Shown here: one piece after another, positions 49,274-62,899 of the stretch
Position numbering within the stretch: position 1 is the first letter of the stretch
Layout: every line of letters begins with the position of its first letter
Source of the DNA: Kiloniellales bacterium
GTDB taxonomy: Bacteria > Pseudomonadota > Alphaproteobacteria > Kiloniellales > JAKSBE01
Assembly (NCBI GenBank): GCA_030066685.1
Contig: JASJBF010000039.1
Location: 1-64,000, forward strand
DNA length: 64,000 nucleotides
Direction of reading: 5' to 3'
The notes under the pieces: model-generated
The model's input: only the letters and a program-made list of their open reading frames with translations
Database searches by the model: none
Told to the model about the DNA's origin: nothing
Program-made: the position numbers and the translations under genes

Positions 49274-52036
49274 TCAGGTCTTGGAAAGTTCACCCCGTTC
49301 CGGCGCCCGGGGCAAGGCGCCAGCGTCCGCCGACGCCGCCGCGTCCTCCTCGCCGGCGCCGAAGTCGAAGAGATCGCCGCCGTCCATCTGGTGCAGCGCG
49401 AGCCGGACCGCGTCCTGGACCGCGTCGGGCACCGCCTCCTGGGCGCCGAGCCGCCGCCCGGCACCGGCCTCCCGCGCCTCGGCGAGCGGCGGCGCGGCCG
49501 CCGGGCTTTCCGTGACCCCGGCGCCGTAGGACAGCGGATCCGAAAAGAGCTCGATCGCGTCCAGGTCCTCGGCCGGCGCCTTGCCCTCCTCGAGCGGCGG
49601 CGGCGCATCGGCGCTTTCGGGCGGGGTGACCTCAGGCGCCGGCAGGGGCATCTCGGCCGGCTGGGTCAGCTCGAGCACCTCTTCCTCGTCGAGTACCGAG
49701 CGCGTGGCGGCCACGACTTCCTGGGCCTCCGCCACGGCCGCCGCGGCATCTTCCCCCGCGCCGCCGCGCGACGGCAGGATCCGGCTGCCGGCGCGCAGCA
49801 CGCCGGCCATGGCCGAGCGCAGGATGCCGCCGCCGGACGCCGGCGCCTCGGTCTCCGAAAACGTCGCGGTCGTCCCGACCTCGGGGATCGCCGGCGGGGG
49901 CGCCGGGGCCTCGGACGAGAGCGTCGGCTCGGGCGAGTCCGGTGACGGCGCGTCTTCCACCAAGTCTTCGGGTGCCGGCGGCGGGTCCACCGTCTCGACC
50001 GGGGCCTCGATGGCGGCCTTGATGGCAGCCCCGTCCGGGATCTCGAGATCGGCCTCCGGGGCCTCGGACGGCGGCGCGGTCTCGGGACCCTCGAAGAGCT
50101 CCAGCGGCAGCGCCTCTTGCGTCGCCGGAGCGGCCGAGGGCGCCGCGGCCTGGGGAGCGGCCGGCAGCTCCAGGCCGGCCTGCGAGGCGAGTGCGGCGAA
50201 ATCCGGAACCGTGACCTCGGGCAGGGCCGCCTCCCCCTCAGCTCCGTCCAGATCGGCCGGATCGGGCATCGAAGGCATCGTAGCCTCGGGCTCTAGGGGG
50301 TCGAGCGCCTCCACCGGGCCCGACGCGGGCCATGCCGGAAGCTCGGGCGGCCCGATGGCCGGCTCGGGCAAGGGCGGGTCGGGCAAGGGTGGCTCGGGCA
50401 AGGGTGGCTCGGGCAAGGGTGGCTCGGGGGCCGTCTCCGATGGGGGCTCCGCCGCCACGCCGGCCCAGGTCTCCGCCCAGGTCTGGACGCCGGCCCCGCT
50501 GTGCGCCGTCGCGGCCGGTTCAGGGATCGGTTCGGGGATCGGTTCGGGGATCGGCGCCACGACCGGCTCGGGCGTCGGCTCGGGCGTCGGGGCCACCGGC
50601 GGATCGGAGGGCCGGCCCGCCGGCCCCAGGGGGATGTCCGCCTTTGGCCTGCCCTCGGCGCCCGCGTCCGGGGATTCCGCCGGAGCGGCCGGCGCCGGCT
50701 CCATCGACGCATCGCAGGGGACCGCGCCCGGCACCACGGCGCCGGGCTCGACCTCGGCCGCGGGGACCGGCTCGGCCGCGCCCGAGGGAGGCTGCGGGCC
50801 GCTGCGGCGCAGCTCCGGCACGACGGTGGGGGCCGGCATCACCGCGGCGAAGGCCGTATGGTCCTGCGCGCGGGCCGCCTTCGGTGGCTCGGGGGGCTGC
50901 GGCTGGGGATCGGGCGGCGCCGCGGCCTCAGGCCTTACCGGCCCGGAGACGGCCGGCGGCGCGGTGGCCGTTTCCGGGGCAGAGCCAGCGTCCGGAACCA
51001 GGATCCCGGAAGCCCGAGGCTCCGGAGCCGGAGTCTCGGGAGACTGAAGTTCCGGCACCTGGAAGTCCGGCACCTCGAACTCCGGGACCGGGGGCGCCGG
51101 AACGACGGCCGCGGGGAGCGCAGTCGGCGCCGAAGGCTCGTCACGCCGGGGCGCGGGCGCCGGGCCTGCGCTCTCTGGCGCCGCCTCGAGAGTCTCGGAG
51201 GTTTCCGGCCTTGTGGCCTCAGCCGGCTCTTCCGCCTCGGGCAGGCCCGTTGCCCGCGCTTCGGCAGGCGGCGGGGTCGTCGCTTCGGCCTTGGCCGGGA
51301 AGTCGGGCAGGGCGGACGCAACCTTCTTCACCAGGTCGGCCGCAGAGCAGGGCTCCTCGGCAGGCGCCGCCGCGGGGGCCGGCGCCGATACCACGCCCTG
51401 GGCCTCCAGGTCCTGCAGGATCTCCTGGACCGGGAACTCGGGTTCCGGCGCCGCGCCGTGCGGCGCGGGCCTCGGCTCACTGGGTGCCGGCCCGGTCGCG
51501 ATCCCCCCGGCCCGAGCCGGCGCCCGGGCCGAGCGGTCTCCGGCCGGTTCTCGCTGGGCCGGCTCTTTCCGGACTTGCTCGGGCTGGGCGGGGCAGGCCG
51601 CCAGGCCGTCGTCGCTGGGCAGCGCCGGCGCCTCGCCGAGCTCGGTCAGGGCCTGGGCCAAGTAGTCGCCCGGCAGCAGGCTGCCGTCGGGCATCAGCAG
51701 GTGCAGGGTCGGATGGGTCTCGGCGATGCCGACGAAGCCTTGGAACACAACCTCGCCGCCGTTGTCGAAGCACAGCACCATGTCGTCGCCGCGGCGCCCG
51801 AGCGCAGGCAGGCCGAGGTCGAAGCTGAGCTTGACGAAGAGCTGCGGGTAGATCGGGTAGACCTGCCTGCGCCCGGCCGGCGGCACCTCGACCCCGTAGA
51901 GGCTGAGGTGCGCCGCGGCCCCGGCTTCGGCCTCCGCCCTGCCGTCGGCGGAGACCCGGCCCGCCGCACGGCCCCCGGGGGCGGGCCCGGCAGCGGGCGC
52001 CGGCCCTTTCTCGGCGGGACTGAGTCCCTCTGCCAT
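49274..52036 (-). CDS. Large Pro/Ala/Glu-rich disordered protein (920 aa)
   Basis: Residues about 40-135 form the only folded-looking part: LSLYGVEVPPAGRRQVYPIY, DDMVLCFDNGGEVVFQGFVG and LLMPDGSLLPGDYLAQAL. Such an acidic-strand/DGG/DGS pattern is reminiscent of the N-terminal prefix of large type I-secreted adhesins (BapA-like), but this is an inference. Some 700 residues of Pro/Ala/Glu low complexity follow, with short tandem units (PEPI, PPLPEP). A mixed C-terminus (residues 810-920) has VPDAVQDAVRLALHQMDGGD. No signal peptide or membrane helix is seen. GGAG precedes the ATG. Long open frames on other strands are shadows of its composition. Confidence 0.65.
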   Translation of the reverse strand: MAEGLSPAEKGPAPAAGPAPGGRAAGRVSADGRAEAEAGAAAHLSLYGVEVPPAGRRQVYPIYPQLFVKLSFDLGLPALGRRGDDMVLCFDNGGEVVFQGFVGIAETHPTLHLLMPDGSLLPGDYLAQALTELGEAPALPSDDGLAACPAQPEQVRKEPAQREPAGDRSARAPARAGGIATGPAPSEPRPAPHGAAPEPEFPVQEILQDLEAQGVVSAPAPAAAPAEEPCSAADLVKKVASALPDFPAKAEATTPPPAEARATGLPEAEEPAEATRPETSETLEAAPESAGPAPAPRRDEPSAPTALPAAVVPAPPVPEFEVPDFQVPELQSPETPAPEPRASGILVPDAGSAPETATAPPAVSGPVRPEAAAPPDPQPQPPEPPKAARAQDHTAFAAVMPAPTVVPELRRSGPQPPSGAAEPVPAAEVEPGAVVPGAVPCDASMEPAPAAPAESPDAGAEGRPKADIPLGPAGRPSDPPVAPTPEPTPEPVVAPIPEPIPEPIPEPAATAHSGAGVQTWAETWAGVAAEPPSETAPEPPLPEPPLPEPPLPDPPLPEPAIGPPELPAWPASGPVEALDPLEPEATMPSMPDPADLDGAEGEAALPEVTVPDFAALASQAGLELPAAPQAAAPSAAPATQEALPLELFEGPETAPPSEAPEADLEIPDGAAIKAAIEAPVETVDPPPAPEDLVEDAPSPDSPEPTLSSEAPAPPPAIPEVGTTATFSETEAPASGGGILRSAMAGVLRAGSRILPSRGGAGEDAAAAVAEAQEVVAATRSVLDEEEVLELTQPAEMPLPAPEVTPPESADAPPPLEEGKAPAEDLDAIELFSDPLSYGAGVTESPAAAPPLAEAREAGAGRRLGAQEAVPDAVQDAVRLALHQMDGGDLFDFGAGEEDAAASADAGALPRAPERGELSKT

Positions 52037-55476: not shown

Positions 55477-57948
55477 TCAGCCGCGGCTGCGCTGCGCCCG
55501 GGGTTCCGCGTCCAGAGCGGGTTGCTCCGCCTCCCTTTCCAAGCCGTCGGTCCAGGCGACCACCTCGTCGATGCGGGCCAGGGCTTCCGCGCCGGCGACT
55601 TCCGCGGCCCCGACCATCGGCCTGGCCTTGGCCGGCAGCCGGCCGGCCGCGCCCTGCCTTAGAAGCTGCAAGGCGCCGAGGATCGAGGCCAGCGCCGGCC
55701 GCAGCTCGCCGTCCAGGACGGCCTTCAGGTGGGCGCGGAGGCCGTCCAGCTCCCCCGCCCCGCTGACGTCGCGGATCACCCCGATGAAGAAGCGACGGCC
55801 GCCGAGAACGACCTCGCCGAGCGAGAGCTCGATCGGCAGGATCGAGCCGTCGCGCCGCTGCGCGGTCAGCTTGCGGATCGGCCCGGCCGGCTTGGCGTGG
55901 TCCTTGGACAGGTAGCGCCGGATATAGCCGTCGTGCTCGCTGCGGTAGGGCTCCGGCATCAGGACCTTGACGTTCTTGCCGAGCAGCTCCCGCGCCTCGT
56001 AGCCGAGCAGGCGTTCCGCGGCCGGGTTCAGGCGCTCGATCGTGCCGAGCCAGTCGATCATGACGATCGCGTCCTCGGCCATCTCGAAGATCGCTCGCGC
56101 CTGCGTCTCGCTCTCCCGGAACGAAGCCTCCACCGCCCGGCGCAGGCCGACCTCGCGGGCCAGCTCGGCGTTGGAGCGCTCCAGCTCCCGGGCCTGCTGC
56201 TGGAGGCGCGCCTCGCGACCCTTCAGCTCGGTGATGTCGGTGCGGATGCCGACGACGCCGCCGTCCTCGGTCCGCCGCTCCTCGATCCGCAGCCAGCGCC
56301 CGTCGCCCAGCTGCTGCTCCAGTGGCGCCCCGGGGTCCCGATGCAGGGCCATGCGCTCTCGGACGAAGTCCTCGACCCGGCCCAGGGCCTCGGCGTACTG
56401 GCCCCGCTCGGCACCATAGCGGATGATTTCCTCGAAGCGGGCGCCGGTTTCGATCGCCGCGGCGCACTCTGCGTAGATCTCCGCGTACTTGCTGTTGGAG
56501 ACGACCAGACGGTCCTCGGCGTCGAAAAGCGCGAAGCCCTCCGATATCGACTCGATCGCGGTCCGCAGGCGGCGCTCGGCCTCGGCCTGATCGGTCTGCG
56601 CCTTCTTGAGGTCGGCGATGTCGAGGGCGACGTAGATGATCGCGTCCGGCTCGCCCTCCTCGCTGCCCAGGGGCGAGGCGGAGACCGCGATCGGCAGCCA
56701 AGCCCCCCGGCCGGCCAGGCAGACCGCCTCGAGAAACTGCACCCGCTCCTCGATCTTCGTCGGATCCAGCGCGGCGACTTCGCTGCCGGTCTGGCCGTCG
56801 CGCAGGACGTCGAGGATCTGGCGCCCGCGCAGCTCCGCCTCGGGCATCGCCAGCAGCTCCCGCGCCGCGCGGTTGGCCGCCCGGATCCGACCCTGCCGGT
56901 CGGTGACCAGCACCAGCTCTGCCATCGAGTTGAGGATGTTGTCGACCCGGTCGCGCGACATGGTGGTCTGCTCCAGGCGCGCGATCATGCCGTTGAAGGA
57001 CTCCGCCAGGCGCTGGAACTCCCTGGACCGGAAGGACGAGACGCGGCGGCTGAGGTCGCCAGCGCGGCCGAAGCCCTGGATCTGGTCGATGAAGCCGAGC
57101 AGCGGGCGGGTCGCCAGCAGGGCGGCCAAGAGGATTCCCCCGACCAGGGCCAGGATGCTGACCACGATCGCGACCAGCATGATCTTCTCGACCTGATCGA
57201 CGGTCTTGAAGGCCGAGGCCCGCTCGGCGACGGTGATCACCGAGACGCCGGCCTGGCGCGGCACCTGCGCTTCAGCCCGGACCCAGCCGCCGAGCGGGAC
57301 ATCGACGATCTCGTCCCATTGGTTCGTCAGCTCGGGGATCGACGAGAACAGCACGAAGCCGGATTCGTGCACGACGATGGTGTTCGTCATCGAGGACGCG
57401 GCGGCGAAGAAGCTTCCCAGGTTGCTGCCGAGGTACTCCACGACCAGGCTGCCCTCCGGCAGGCCCTCGTAGATCACTGGCACGGCGATGATCAGGCCCG
57501 AAGGTGCCAGCCTGATCGCATCCTGTCCCTCCATGACGCCGGGAAGCCAGTCCGCGCCCTGGTAGGAGATGTTGCGCCCGGTCGAGGCGATTGCCCGGCC
57601 CCGGTAGTCGGTCAGGGTGATGATCGCCCCCCTCGGCCCCGGCATGCGCAGGGACCGGAAGAAGGTGCCGAGGTAGCTCTCGCGCTGGATCGTGTCGACC
57701 AGGCTGTTGACCAAAAGGTCGTTGGCGGCGAGCACACGCGCGGCGTCTTGCAGGATCGCGATCTCGGTCGCGATGGCGTCGGCGCGGTGGTCCGCGTCGC
57801 GGCGCAGACCACCGCGGACCTCGTCCTCGACCGTCGCCCGGGTGATCTCGGCGGCGCCGTACCAGACCGCCAGGAGCAGCAGGATCGAAACCGGCAGGAC
57901 TCGCCACAGGACCTGGCCGAGCAGGCCCCTGCGCGGCGCCGTCGTCAT
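55477..57948 (-). CDS. Membrane receptor with three PAS domains and a degenerate histidine-kinase dimerisation domain
   Basis: 823 residues. One helix (about 14-32), a periplasmic sensor region (about 33-255, dCache-like), a second helix (about 260-284), a HAMP region (about 285-335), then three PAS domains (about 345-460, 465-595, 630-745), the last with EMAEDAIVMIDWLGTIERLN and YIRRYLSKDHAKPAG. The end looks like a DHp domain: LKAVLDGELRPALASILGAL and LLRQGAAGRLPAKARPM. Where kinases have SHELRTPL it has DGELRPAL, so the phospho-accepting His is missing (Gly), and no ATPase domain follows. It overlaps the binding-protein gene by four bases. Confidence 0.85.
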   Translation of the reverse strand: MTTAPRRGLLGQVLWRVLPVSILLLLAVWYGAAEITRATVEDEVRGGLRRDADHRADAIATEIAILQDAARVLAANDLLVNSLVDTIQRESYLGTFFRSLRMPGPRGAIITLTDYRGRAIASTGRNISYQGADWLPGVMEGQDAIRLAPSGLIIAVPVIYEGLPEGSLVVEYLGSNLGSFFAAASSMTNTIVVHESGFVLFSSIPELTNQWDEIVDVPLGGWVRAEAQVPRQAGVSVITVAERASAFKTVDQVEKIMLVAIVVSILALVGGILLAALLATRPLLGFIDQIQGFGRAGDLSRRVSSFRSREFQRLAESFNGMIARLEQTTMSRDRVDNILNSMAELVLVTDRQGRIRAANRAARELLAMPEAELRGRQILDVLRDGQTGSEVAALDPTKIEERVQFLEAVCLAGRGAWLPIAVSASPLGSEEGEPDAIIYVALDIADLKKAQTDQAEAERRLRTAIESISEGFALFDAEDRLVVSNSKYAEIYAECAAAIETGARFEEIIRYGAERGQYAEALGRVEDFVRERMALHRDPGAPLEQQLGDGRWLRIEERRTEDGGVVGIRTDITELKGREARLQQQARELERSNAELAREVGLRRAVEASFRESETQARAIFEMAEDAIVMIDWLGTIERLNPAAERLLGYEARELLGKNVKVLMPEPYRSEHDGYIRRYLSKDHAKPAGPIRKLTAQRRDGSILPIELSLGEVVLGGRRFFIGVIRDVSGAGELDGLRAHLKAVLDGELRPALASILGALQLLRQGAAGRLPAKARPMVGAAEVAGAEALARIDEVVAWTDGLEREAEQPALDAEPRAQRSRG

Positions 57949-59168
57949 GGGGCCCCGATCGGGACGATGGCGCCCCGGGCGTCATAGCGGCAAAGGCGGA
58001 AGTCGCCGGCGTCCAGCGCGTCGTGGCGTTCCGGCGTGAAGGCCGGATCGTAGTCGCGCATCAGGCCCTCGTAGCGGCCGAGCCGCTCAAGGCTGCGGCG
58101 CACCGCCGCCCGCTCCGCGGTCCCGGCGCGCTCGATCGCGCGGCCGAGCAGCTGGACCAGGTCGTAGGCGTGGGCGGTCCCGACCGGCGAGATCACGTCG
58201 GCGGGCGAGCGGCAGCCGCCGAAGCGCCCGCAATAGGCCTCGTAGAGCCGCGCCGCGCGCGCGGGAAAGGGCGGATCGAAGAAGGAGAAGGTCTGCAGGA
58301 AGGACAGGTCGACCTTGCTCAGGTCCGCGCCGGCCTGGGTGAAGAAGTCGCCCCCTGTGATGCCCCAGTGCGAGATGATCGGCAGGCGCGCGGCCTCGGG
58401 CCGGCTTGCCACCTCGCGGACCGCGACCAGACCGTCGACCGGGTTGGCGACCAGCATGATGACCTCGGCGCCGGCGGCGCGCAGGGCGTCGACCTGCGCG
58501 CTCATGTCGCGCTCGCCGCTGTTGAACCAGGCGACGGCGGCCGGCTGCAGGCCCTGGCGGGCCAGGGCCTCGCGCATGGCGGTCTCGTTCGATCGGCCCC
58601 AGCCGGTACGCCAGAGCAGCAGACCCAGGCGCTCGAAGCCGCGGTCGCGGGCCGCCTTGACCAGGAAGCCGCCGGCGTGCTCGTCGCGGACCGAGACCCG
58701 GAACACGAAGTTGGGATCGTAGCCGTTGGAGACCACCGGCGTACCGGCGGCCCAGGGGCCGAGGTAGAGCAGGCCGTGGCGATGGATCGTCTCCAGCTCC
58801 GCCAGGGCGACCGGTGTGTGGATGCCGCCGACGACCGCGATCAGGTCCTCCATCGCGGCGAAGGCCTCGATGTTGTCGCGGCCGCGCGCCGGGGTGCCGC
58901 GGTGGTCGCGCACCACCAGCGAGAGCGGCCGGCCGAGCACGCCGCCCCGGGCGTTGATGTCCTCGATCGCCAGAACCAGGCCGCGGCGGATCGCCTCGCC
59001 GCTCTGGGCCGCGCCCTTCGACATATCGGCGTCGAGTCCGATCACGATGGGATCCGCCGTCGGATCGACGGCCGCGGATTGCGTCTCCGCCCGGGCCGAT
59101 CCGACAGCCAGGCAGAGGGCCAGGGCGGCCGGCCCTGCGAAGGCGAGGTAAGCGCTTTTTCCTGTCAC
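57945..59168 (-). CDS. Periplasmic substrate-binding protein (LivJ/type I fold)
   Basis: 407 residues from a GTG start. An N-terminal signal peptide is seen (LAFAGPAALALCLAVGSARA, cut near residue 27). The mature part is a type I binding fold: DPIVIGLDADMSKGAAQSGE, AIEDINARGGVLGRPLSLVV, EDLIAVVGGIHTPVALAELE, then WRTGWGRSNETAMREALARQ and EVIMLVANPVDGLVAVREVA. It resembles branched-chain amino-acid binding proteins (Peripla_BP_6). There is no permease or ATPase gene nearby; the next gene, overlapping by four bases, is a membrane receptor, so it probably feeds signalling. Confidence 0.9.
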   Translation of the reverse strand: MTGKSAYLAFAGPAALALCLAVGSARAETQSAAVDPTADPIVIGLDADMSKGAAQSGEAIRRGLVLAIEDINARGGVLGRPLSLVVRDHRGTPARGRDNIEAFAAMEDLIAVVGGIHTPVALAELETIHRHGLLYLGPWAAGTPVVSNGYDPNFVFRVSVRDEHAGGFLVKAARDRGFERLGLLLWRTGWGRSNETAMREALARQGLQPAAVAWFNSGERDMSAQVDALRAAGAEVIMLVANPVDGLVAVREVASRPEAARLPIISHWGITGGDFFTQAGADLSKVDLSFLQTFSFFDPPFPARAARLYEAYCGRFGGCRSPADVISPVGTAHAYDLVQLLGRAIERAGTAERAAVRRSLERLGRYEGLMRDYDPAFTPERHDALDAGDFRLCRYDARGAIVPIGAP

Positions 59169-59586
59169 TTTGGGTATCTCGTTCCGTGGGCAGGTGGACC
59201 GGAGCAGGCCCCCCGGGGGTCGAGGGCAGACGCGCCCTCACGCCCTGTCAGCACGCCAAAAAGGCGTATATCGAAAGACATTTTTATCCATCGGAATTAA
59301 AAGACCCTGAAAGGGCTTCAGGCTTTCGAAATGGAAAAGTGCTAAGCTATTACGAATCGATTCGGCTCTTGTGCGGCGTGGTCGAGGTTACCACGTCCGC
59401 TGTGGGGCGAGGACGAAGCGCGCGGGGAAAAACGACGGAGTCGCCGCGTATAACAAACGACGATAGAGGGAACTAAAGGGGTCGGGAGCTTGGTTTCGAC
59501 GGAGGCCAAGAATCTGTTAACCATATTGGTGCAAGGTTCTTTGGCGCCGTTGCAAGTCAACGTCAGCACTTGTGTGGGAGCCCACG
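59169..59586. other. Long intergenic region before prkA
   Basis: 418 bases between divergent genes. The part from about 59260 to 59345 is AT-rich. CCCTGAAAGGGCTTCAGGCTTT near 59306 can fold into a small stem. Nearer prkA are TATAAC (59449-59454) and GGAAC (59469-59473), the latter being the -35 core of alphaproteobacterial EcfG-type stress promoters, but a well-spaced CGTT partner is not seen. No gene is supported here. Confidence 0.4.
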
Positions 59587-61536
59587 ATGACCGCCCTTGC
59601 CAAGGATGTTTTCGACCTCTTTTCCGAAGTCTACGACCGCGACAAGCAGGAGGACATGAGTCTTCAGGACTACCTGATGGCTTGTCGCGACGATCCGATG
59701 ATGTACGCCACCGCCGCCGAGCGTATGATCGCGGCGATCGGCGAGCCCGAGGTGATCGACACCAGCGCGGATTCCCGCCTCGGCCGCATCTTCCTGAACC
59801 GGACGATCAAGGTCTATCCGGCCTTCAAGGACTTCTACGGCATGGAGGACACGATCCAGCGGATCGTGGGCTACTTCCAGTACGCGGCGCAGGGCCTGGA
59901 AGAGCGCAAGCAGATCCTCTACCTGCTGGGGCCCGTGGGCGGCGGCAAGTCCTCCCTGGCGGAGCGCCTGAAGAGCCTGATGGAGGCCTATCCGATCTAC
60001 GTCCTCAAGGCCGGCGACGAGATCAGCCCAGTGCTGGAGTCGCCCCTCGGCCTCTTCGACCCGGAGAAGTTCGGCGATCTGCTTGAGAGCAAGTACGGCA
60101 TCGCAGAGCGGCGCCTCAACGGCCTGATCTCGCCCTGGGCGACCAAGCGGCTGGACGAGTTCGACGGCGACATCTCCAAGTTCACGGTGACCCGGCTGAT
60201 GCCCTCGCGGCTGCGCCGGATCGGCATCGCCAAGACCGAACCAGGCGACGAGAACAACCAGGACATCTCGGCGCTGGTCGGCAAGATCGACATCCGCAAG
60301 CTCGAGCACTACAGCCAGAACGACCCCGACGCCTACAGCTTCTCCGGCGGCCTGAACTGCACGACCCAGGGCATGCTGGAGTTCGTCGAGATGTTCAAGG
60401 CGCCGATCAAGGTGCTGCATCCGCTGCTGACCGCGACCCAGGAAGGCAACTACCTGGGGACCGAGAGCTTCGGCGCCTTCCCCTTCCAGGGCACCGTCCT
60501 GGCTCACTCCAACGAGGCCGAGTGGGAGCAGTTCAAGAACAACAAGAACAACGAGGCCTTCCTCGACCGGATCTGCGTGGTCAAGGTGCCCTACTGCCTC
60601 AGGGTCCACGAGGAAGCGAAGATCTACGACAAGCTCTTGCGAGAGAGCGAGCTGGGCGAAGCCTCCTGCGCGCCCGAGGTCCTGGACACGCTCAGCAAGT
60701 TCTGCGTCCTGACCCGCCTGCGCGAGCACGAGAACTCCTCGATCTTCTCCAAGATGCGGATCTACGACGGCGAGAACCTCAAGGACACCGATCCCAAGGC
60801 CAAGTCGGTCCAGGAGTACCGCGAGGTCGCTGGGGTCGACGAGGGCATGAACGGCGTCTCGACCCGCTTCGCCTTCAAGGTCCTGTCCGAGACCTTCAAC
60901 TACGACACCGAGGAGGTCGCCGCCGATCCGGTGCACCTGATGTACATCCTCGAGCACTCGGTCAAGCGCGAGCAGTTCCCCAAGGAGACCGAGGAGCGCT
61001 ACCTGGAGTTCATTAAATCCGAGTTGGCGCCGCGCTACGCCGAGTTCATCGGCCACGAGATCCAGAAGGCCTACCTGGAGTCCTATTCCGAGTACGGTCA
61101 GAACCTCTTTGACCGCTACATCGCCTACGCCGATGCCTGGATCGAAGAGCAGGACTACAAGGACCCGGACACCGGCCAGGTCTTCGACCGCGAGATCCTG
61201 GACGCCGAGCTGTCCAAGATCGAGAAGCCGGCCGGCATCGCCAACCCGAAGGACTTCCGCAACGAGGTGGTCAAGTTCTCGCTGCGCGCCCGGGCCAACA
61301 ACAACGGCAAGAACCCGTCCTGGACCAGCTACGAGAAGATCCGCGAGGTCATCGAGAAGCGGATGTTCAGCCAGGTCGAGGACCTGCTGCCGGTGATCAG
61401 CTTCGGCACCAAGAAGGACAGCCAGACGGACAAGCAGCACACCGAGTTCGTCCACCGCATGACCTCGCGCGGCTACACCGAGCGGCAGGTCCGCCGGCTG
61501 GTCGAGTGGTACATGCGGGTCAACAAGGCCGGCTGA
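59587..61536 (+). CDS. prkA: PrkA serine protein kinase (AAA+)
   Basis: 649 residues from the ATG at 59587 (GGGAG upstream). An AAA+ ATPase-type kinase linked to stress, sporulation or nutrient starvation. Seen: DVFDLFSEVYDRDKQEDMSL, the P-loop LYLLGPVGGGKSSLAERLKS near residue 120, an AAA core (YSFSGGLNCTTQGMLEFVEM, TESFGAFPFQGTVLAHSNEA) and the C-terminal PrkA region with RMTSRGYTERQVRRLVEWYM. The length matches the family (about 640). yeaH and spoVR follow, the standard triad. Confidence 0.95.
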   Translation: MTALAKDVFDLFSEVYDRDKQEDMSLQDYLMACRDDPMMYATAAERMIAAIGEPEVIDTSADSRLGRIFLNRTIKVYPAFKDFYGMEDTIQRIVGYFQYAAQGLEERKQILYLLGPVGGGKSSLAERLKSLMEAYPIYVLKAGDEISPVLESPLGLFDPEKFGDLLESKYGIAERRLNGLISPWATKRLDEFDGDISKFTVTRLMPSRLRRIGIAKTEPGDENNQDISALVGKIDIRKLEHYSQNDPDAYSFSGGLNCTTQGMLEFVEMFKAPIKVLHPLLTATQEGNYLGTESFGAFPFQGTVLAHSNEAEWEQFKNNKNNEAFLDRICVVKVPYCLRVHEEAKIYDKLLRESELGEASCAPEVLDTLSKFCVLTRLREHENSSIFSKMRIYDGENLKDTDPKAKSVQEYREVAGVDEGMNGVSTRFAFKVLSETFNYDTEEVAADPVHLMYILEHSVKREQFPKETEERYLEFIKSELAPRYAEFIGHEIQKAYLESYSEYGQNLFDRYIAYADAWIEEQDYKDPDTGQVFDREILDAELSKIEKPAGIANPKDFRNEVVKFSLRARANNNGKNPSWTSYEKIREVIEKRMFSQVEDLLPVISFGTKKDSQTDKQHTEFVHRMTSRGYTERQVRRLVEWYMRVNKAG

Positions 61537-61543
61537 CGCGGGC

Positions 61544-61572
61544 CGGGCCCCTGGCGCCAGGCCAAGGGGCCC
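61544..61572. other. GC-rich hairpin between prkA and yeaH
   Basis: GGGCCCC and GGGGCCC arms enclose a second short stem (TGGCGCCA) in the 52-base gap between prkA and yeaH. There is no T-run, so it is more likely an RNA-processing or stability element than a terminator. Confidence 0.35.
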
Positions 61573-61588
61573 TAGGAGGGCAGACGTC

Positions 61589-62899
61589 ATGCGACACTTC
61601 ATCGACAGGCGCCTGAATCCCAAGGACAAGAGCCTCGTCAACCGGCAGCGCTTCCTGCGCCGCGCCCGTGCGCAGATCAAGGACGCGGTCAACAAGTCGC
61701 TCAAGGACCGCAAGATCACCGATGTCGGCGGCGGGGAATCGGTCTCGATCCCGAGCAAGGGAATCCGCGAGCCCCGCCTGCGCCACGCTTCCAGCGGCGG
61801 CCGGCGCCAGCGGATCTTCCCGGGGAACAAGGAGTTCACCCCGGGCGACCGGATCAACAAGCCGCCCAGCGGCAAGGGCGAGGGCGGCAAGGAGGCCAGC
61901 GACAGCGGCGAGGGCGAGGACGAGTTCACCTTCGCCCTGACCCGCGAGGAGTTCCTCGACCTCTTCTTCGAGGATCTGGAACTGCCCGACCTGGTCAAGA
62001 CCAACCTCAAGGAAACAACGGCCTACAAGCCGCAGCGCGCCGGCTACTCGGTCGACGGCACGACCACCAACATCAACGTGCTGCGCACCATGCGCCACAG
62101 CCTGGGCCGGCGCATCGCGCTCAAGCGCCCGGTGCTGGGTGACGTCGAGGGCCTGCAGGCGGAGGTCGACGAGCTGGAGACCAAGGACCACCTCGACGCC
62201 CGCGAGATGCGCCGCCTGATCGAACTCAAGGTCGAGCTGGAGAACGTCCAGCGGCGCTGGAAGGCGATTCCCTACATCGACCCGCTGGACATCCGCTACA
62301 ACCGCTTCGAGCAGGTGCCGCAGCCCAAGACCAACGCGGTGATGTTCTGCCTGATGGACGTGTCGGGTTCCATGGGCCCGCGCGAGAAGGACCTCGCCAA
62401 GCGCTTCTTCATCCTGCTGCACCTCTTCCTCGAGCGCCGCTACGAACGCATCGACATCGTTTTCATCCGCCACACCCACAAGGCCTCCGAGGTCGACGAG
62501 GAGACCTTCTTCTACAGCCGCGAAACCGGCGGCACGGTGGTGTCCACCGCGCTGGTCGAGATGCGCAAGGTCCTGCGCGACCGCTATCCGGTCCAGGACT
62601 GGAACATCTACGCGGCCCAGGCCTCGGACGGCGACAACTTCGAGGACGACACCGGCTATTGCCTGGAACTCCTGGCCCAGGAGCTGCTGCCGGTCTGCCA
62701 GTACTTCGCTTACGTCGAGATCCTCGACGAGCGCGAGTTCCAGTTGTTCCAGAACTCGAACGGCGGCAAGACCCTGTGGCGCGGCTACCGCCGGCTGGCC
62801 GAGGCCTTCGAGAACTTCGAGACCAAGCGGATCTCCAAGCCGGGTGACATCTATCCGGTGTTCCGCGAGCTCTTCGCCAAGAACAAGGAAACGGCCTGA
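61589..62899 (+). CDS. yeaH: YeaH/YhbH family protein (DUF444)
   Basis: 436 residues. The N-terminus has FIDRRLNPKDKSLVNRQRFL, KDAVNKSLKDRKITDVGGGE and a Gly/Lys-rich disordered middle (SGKGEGGKEASDSGEGEDEF). The C-terminal part is vWA-like with MFCLMDVSGSMGPREKDLAK (DxSxS MIDAS), then RRYERIDIVFIRHTHKASEV and RETGGTVVSTALVEM. It acts with PrkA and SpoVR in a conserved but poorly understood stress module. Confidence 0.94.
   Translation: MRHFIDRRLNPKDKSLVNRQRFLRRARAQIKDAVNKSLKDRKITDVGGGESVSIPSKGIREPRLRHASSGGRRQRIFPGNKEFTPGDRINKPPSGKGEGGKEASDSGEGEDEFTFALTREEFLDLFFEDLELPDLVKTNLKETTAYKPQRAGYSVDGTTTNINVLRTMRHSLGRRIALKRPVLGDVEGLQAEVDELETKDHLDAREMRRLIELKVELENVQRRWKAIPYIDPLDIRYNRFEQVPQPKTNAVMFCLMDVSGSMGPREKDLAKRFFILLHLFLERRYERIDIVFIRHTHKASEVDEETFFYSRETGGTVVSTALVEMRKVLRDRYPVQDWNIYAAQASDGDNFEDDTGYCLELLAQELLPVCQYFAYVEILDEREFQLFQNSNGGKTLWRGYRRLAEAFENFETKRISKPGDIYPVFRELFAKNKETA

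Follow-up and report, generated by a model that had tools for sequence, protein, structure and literature searches.

LuxP-LuxQ and TorT-TorS are binding-protein-dependent sensor kinases. About 10 cases have been characterized in which a binding protein stimulates a sensor kinase, among them BctC-BctE (PMC9602780). The locus described here, from a Kiloniellales bacterium, resembles LuxP-LuxQ, TorT-TorS and BctC-BctE in that it pairs a periplasmic binding protein with a membrane receptor. It differs from them in that the receptor has no kinase output and the binding protein is of the Peripla_BP_6 type and is not encoded beside transporter genes.

Other described proteins resemble the receptor at its output end. 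DivL from Caulobacter is likewise an alphaproteobacterial kinase-like PAS protein, but it still carries its HATPase domain, lacks a binding protein and forms part of the CckA-CtrA pathway. DivL function needs neither the ATPase domain nor the phosphorylation residue (PMC9491836). An HATPase-less form of ChrS from Corynebacterium glutamicum that arose through a frameshift in the CA domain (ChrS-CAfs) exerts an effect that requires the DHp domain and not its His (PMC9491836). The streptococcal accessory protein RocA acts through the sensor kinase CovS (PMC7028121). ChrS-CAfs thus shares with our receptor a DHp domain without an HATPase domain, but it was evolved in the laboratory, keeps its His and has a known paralogous partner, HrrS. 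RocA is a kinase-like pseudokinase that works via another sensor kinase; unlike our receptor it still has a CA domain, though a degenerate one, as well as the His, and no binding protein is described there.

Results

The window (the whole 64,000-nucleotide stretch of contig JASJBF010000039.1 that we analyzed) contains a binding-protein gene followed by a receptor gene. An earlier note, made from the sequence alone, reported that the two overlap by ATGA, and re-reading the sequence confirmed the overlap, the coordinates and the frames. The genes and the sensor and relay domains are as follows.

57945..59168, minus strand: periplasmic type I solute-binding protein (Peripla_BP_6), 407 aa, with a GTG start and a signal-like N-terminus
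55477..57948, minus strand: membrane receptor, 823 aa, whose start codon overlaps the binding-protein stop (ATGA)
57198..57843, minus strand: periplasmic tandem-Cache sensor (about residues 36-250), AlphaFold pLDDT 84, with a DctB match
56968..57111, minus strand: HAMP domain (residues 280-327), Pfam 23.6 bits against a cut-off of 25
56608..56934, minus strand: PAS1 (residues 339-447), the best stretch for Pfam PAS_4
56215..56556, minus strand: PAS2, PAS_7 type (residues 465-578), by Pfam
55765..56097, minus strand: PAS3, FixL-like (residues 618-728), by Pfam PAS and FixL structures (E 1e-27)

The binding protein matched Pfam Peripla_BP_6 with an E-value of 4.3e-41. The neighbors of the pair are DUF72, CYTH-CHAD, ParA-like, PrkA and DUF444 genes. 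None encodes a transporter, as the earlier note had stated, and we therefore rejected the idea that the binding protein is an ABC-transporter component. At the class level, relatives of the binding protein with at least 50% identity adjoin receptors, and two of those with 36-38% identity (L076 and L078) adjoin ABC transporter genes. The ParA-type gene is convergent with the receptor, ends 31 bp away from it and is kept in both sister species. The PrkA serine kinase and DUF444 genes (window positions 59572-62899) are divergent from the binding-protein gene, and PrkA is 97-99% conserved in the sister species. Elsewhere in the window, positions 49274-52036 hold a 920-residue Pro/Ala-rich frame with PPLPEPPLPEP repeats and without a Pfam match.

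The receptor consists of an N-terminal membrane helix, a periplasmic Cache domain, a second helix, a HAMP domain and three PAS domains. The periplasmic sensor, HAMP and PAS domains proposed in the earlier note were recovered by Pfam (HAMP below threshold) and by the fold of the Cache domain. Pfam dCache_1 scored below its cut-off on the sensor. The sensor model nevertheless matched Cache sensors, DctB and KinD among them, at Z 15-17; DctB was the best of the solved structures (Z 17.0, rmsd 2.8 over 200 residues). PDB entry 5ere also appeared as a Cache match in this comparison; we set it aside because the binding-protein profile gave no match to it.

The C-terminal end of the receptor retains part of a kinase core.

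55480..55764, minus strand: DHp remnant and tail (residues 729-823), supported by a DHp profile, a predicted two-helix hairpin and alignment with the DHp domains of L122, L098, L073 and L093
55690..55713, minus strand: degenerate H-box DGELRPAL (residues 746-753), with Gly in place of His, by DHp alignment

Neither HisKA nor HATPase_c gave a Pfam match in the receptor, and a local HATPase profile found nothing there. Together with the DHp alignment, these searches bear out the reported absence of the H-box His and of the HATPase domain. The remainder of the DHp pattern was said to be preserved, and this holds as well: the turn and the hydrophobic pattern are kept, and a DHp profile built from relatives matches residues 744-793 (E 6.3e-6). 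A structure prediction of the tail had been proposed. AlphaFold places two long helices at residues 729-764 and 775-808 (pLDDT about 82-90), so that most of the 95-residue tail is predicted to form the two-helix hairpin typical of HisKA kinases, without the phosphoacceptor His and the HATPase_c domain.

We considered whether a complete kinase end is masked by a frameshift, which the earlier note had raised for the region just after 55477, or by an assembly error. We found no point in favor of this explanation. GC3 is 0.79-0.98 up to the receptor stop, no HATPase domain occurs in any minus-strand frame downstream of it, and the conserved convergent ParA gene ends only 31 bp away. HATPase_c also had no match on the 114-kb contig, compared with 48 matches elsewhere in the genome. 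A hidden kinase end is therefore very improbable.

We compared the receptor with its relatives by collecting family loci with a binding-protein profile; a direct protein scan of genome contigs with the receptor gave nothing. Binding-protein homologs with 37-69% identity lie upstream of homologous Cache-HAMP receptors in genomes labeled Alpha-, Beta- and Gammaproteobacteria, Desulfobacterota, SAR324 and others. The Peripla_BP_6 gene is directly upstream of the homologous sensor in the window and in about 70 other loci. Across homologous pairs, identity to the window proteins is 47-69% for the binding protein and 24-38% for the receptor sensor. Our collection comprised 80 named loci, of which 70 could be classified by output; in two the contig stops before the output is reached, in five a different frame lies downstream and in three none does. 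Among the classified receptors, 59 carry HATPase, nine carry GGDEF and two (L085 and L141) carry neither. At L145:1338-6359, from a MAG labeled Planctomycetota, the binding protein is 67% identical and its frame is apparently broken, and a Tn3-type transposase lies downstream in the receptor's place.

The closest binding protein (69% identity, L060/L081) accompanies a receptor with PAS-HisKA-HATPase. The PAS3-DHp region of the window receptor can be aligned with the corresponding part of L122 and L098, orthologs that retain both SHELRTPL and HATPase; the alignment with these PAS-DHp regions spans about 180 residues and shows about 33% identity. It indicates that the receptor derives from a kinase of the binding-protein receptor family, with further PAS domains before the last one. 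The H-box His is present in 54 of the 55 aligned DHp domains, and only the window domain has Gly. Thus, the loss is specific to this lineage, and the missing His, about which the earlier note had asked, is not a conserved trait. The finding of homologs with an intact H-box and HATPase domain had been named as a sign that this copy is simply truncated. Such homologs exist at the family level, but truncation does not account for the whole picture, since the H-box itself has diverged and the rest of the 823-codon frame is clean.

The two classified relatives with neither HATPase nor GGDEF differ in their ends. L085 (8236-10071) has a His-type DHp (HHVGNAVTP), and the translations of both neighboring genes resemble kinase or receiver-HATPase proteins. 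L141 (3666-7248) ends after a PAS domain and has no DHp; downstream lie an H-NOX-like gene of 189 residues and, separately, a kinase-like gene, and the binding-protein signal may here pass into a nitric-oxide-linked kinase. L141 lends some weight to the idea that the DHp tail of the window receptor is a mere dimer clamp and that output runs through PAS, for example by docking on another PAS kinase or a cyclase, as does the predominance of three PAS domains in the cytoplasmic half. A plain coiled coil would be enough for a clamp, however, and the tail keeps the DHp turn and hydrophobic pattern and is predicted to fold as a hairpin. We regard output through PAS as improbable.

The earlier note did not mention that PAS3 resembles FixL. 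The best PDB matches of this domain are FixL structures, with about 42% identity over the heme PAS, and its model superimposes on BjFixL with Z 18.2 and rmsd 1.6 over 105 residues. Sequence alignments identify two residues of interest.

55933..55935, minus strand: His672, aligned with the FixL heme-ligand His
55873..55875, minus strand: Arg692, aligned with BjFixL Arg220 (distal Arg)

We take the FixL column that holds His672 to be that of the heme ligand. In the Arg692 column, the aligned residue of 1y28, the R220A structure, is Ala. PAS3 therefore contains both residues of the FixL-type heme pocket, and by these alignments it may bind heme. Both residues also occur in seven of the 12 other well-aligning PAS domains of the family, indicating that the motif alone is no proof of heme and that the trait is not specific to the window. 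Oxygen sensing by PAS3 is possible, given the FixL-like match with His and Arg retained. FixL differs in being an active kinase, and heme binding by the window receptor is putative. A FixL-like PAS kinase that is 54% identical over PAS3 is encoded elsewhere in the genome (G000:C2:121288-121767; L003).

The pair is absent from both sister species. In G002, nothing but the N-terminal 78 residues of the binding protein is left between ParA and PrkA; the G001 site is occupied by an unrelated ankyrin-repeat/glyoxalase-like frame (L165:7230-8530). The stump implies that the common ancestor of the window species and G002 carried the pair and that G002 later deleted it. Over the 44 codons of the mature binding protein that can be compared with the stump, we counted nine synonymous and two non-synonymous codon changes (dN 0.03, dS 0.31). 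These values indicate that selection acted on the binding protein over most of the period preceding the deletion.

Losses in the sister species raise the question of whether the pair in the window is also on its way out, with the kinase end gone and the receptor drifting. Because open frames are cheap in a high-GC genome, we simulated the appearance of stops under neutral change. The simulation started from the window sequence with a SHELRTPL H-box restored, which assumes that this was the ancestral form. Neutral change of about 3.5 of the eight H-box residues required about 0.3 substitutions per site. At that divergence, 7-12 stops are expected in the receptor, compared with none observed in 823 codons. 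Taken by itself, the 95-codon tail would be expected to gain only about one stop, which is compatible with drift of the tail alone. The simulation suggests that the receptor as a whole is not a neutral relic. Decay would fit the stump in G002, the unrelated frame at the G001 site, the solitary position of the window among the aligned DHp domains and the lack of a linked partner on the contig. It is at odds with the clean frame, the GC3 values throughout the receptor, the retained heme-pocket residues of PAS3 and purifying selection on the binding protein in the genus. We consider decay unlikely, though it is the most serious of the alternatives.

Discussion

The window receptor is genuinely kinase-dead and derives from a widespread family of binding-protein receptors. 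We propose that its ancestor was a binding-protein-dependent histidine kinase and that both the HATPase domain and the catalytic His have since disappeared. Judging from the family and the gene order, the ligand-loaded binding protein would dock on the tandem-Cache domain, and the signal would be relayed via HAMP and the three PAS domains, where the FixL-like PAS3 may contribute a signal from oxygen or redox state. The predicted DHp hairpin would dimerize but could not be phosphorylated. Output would then occur by protein contact, either because a complete kinase pairs via the DHp hairpin or because a response regulator is held. A ligand-gated pseudokinase of this origin, signaling most likely by protein contact, is the reading we favor, with confidence that is evenly balanced.

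The precedents of ChrS, DivL and RocA support output by contact, as do the histidine-kinase-like genes found next to the HATPase-less L085 and L141. The window itself, unlike those two loci, has no histidine-kinase-like neighbor. Contact output is weakened by the occurrence of the His-less form in a single genome, by the loss of the pair in both sister species and by the failure to find a partner kinase linked on the 114-kb contig. When DHp similarity was used to look for a cognate partner in the organism's own genome, nothing significant emerged; the best match at a kinase gene had an E-value of 0.27. The earlier proposal, that the receptor heterodimerizes or competes with another kinase, is plausible by analogy. 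A fuller version, in which a natural and selectively maintained kinase-dead receptor is driven by the binding protein, integrates solute and oxygen inputs (the latter through a heme-bearing PAS3) and sets an unlinked kinase via DHp contact, is doubtful as a whole.

Our best reading is that the receptor is comparable in kind to DivL, ChrS-CAfs and RocA. The literature searched, which was covered in part, did not describe a kinase-dead receptor coupled to a binding protein. Receptors that depend on a binding protein are already known, and so, separately, are kinase-dead regulators. If one natural receptor is both, it would show that sensing modules can outlive their kinase and then be rewired. 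The family offers a ready comparison, in which the same sensor is found with a kinase, a cyclase or no catalytic output.
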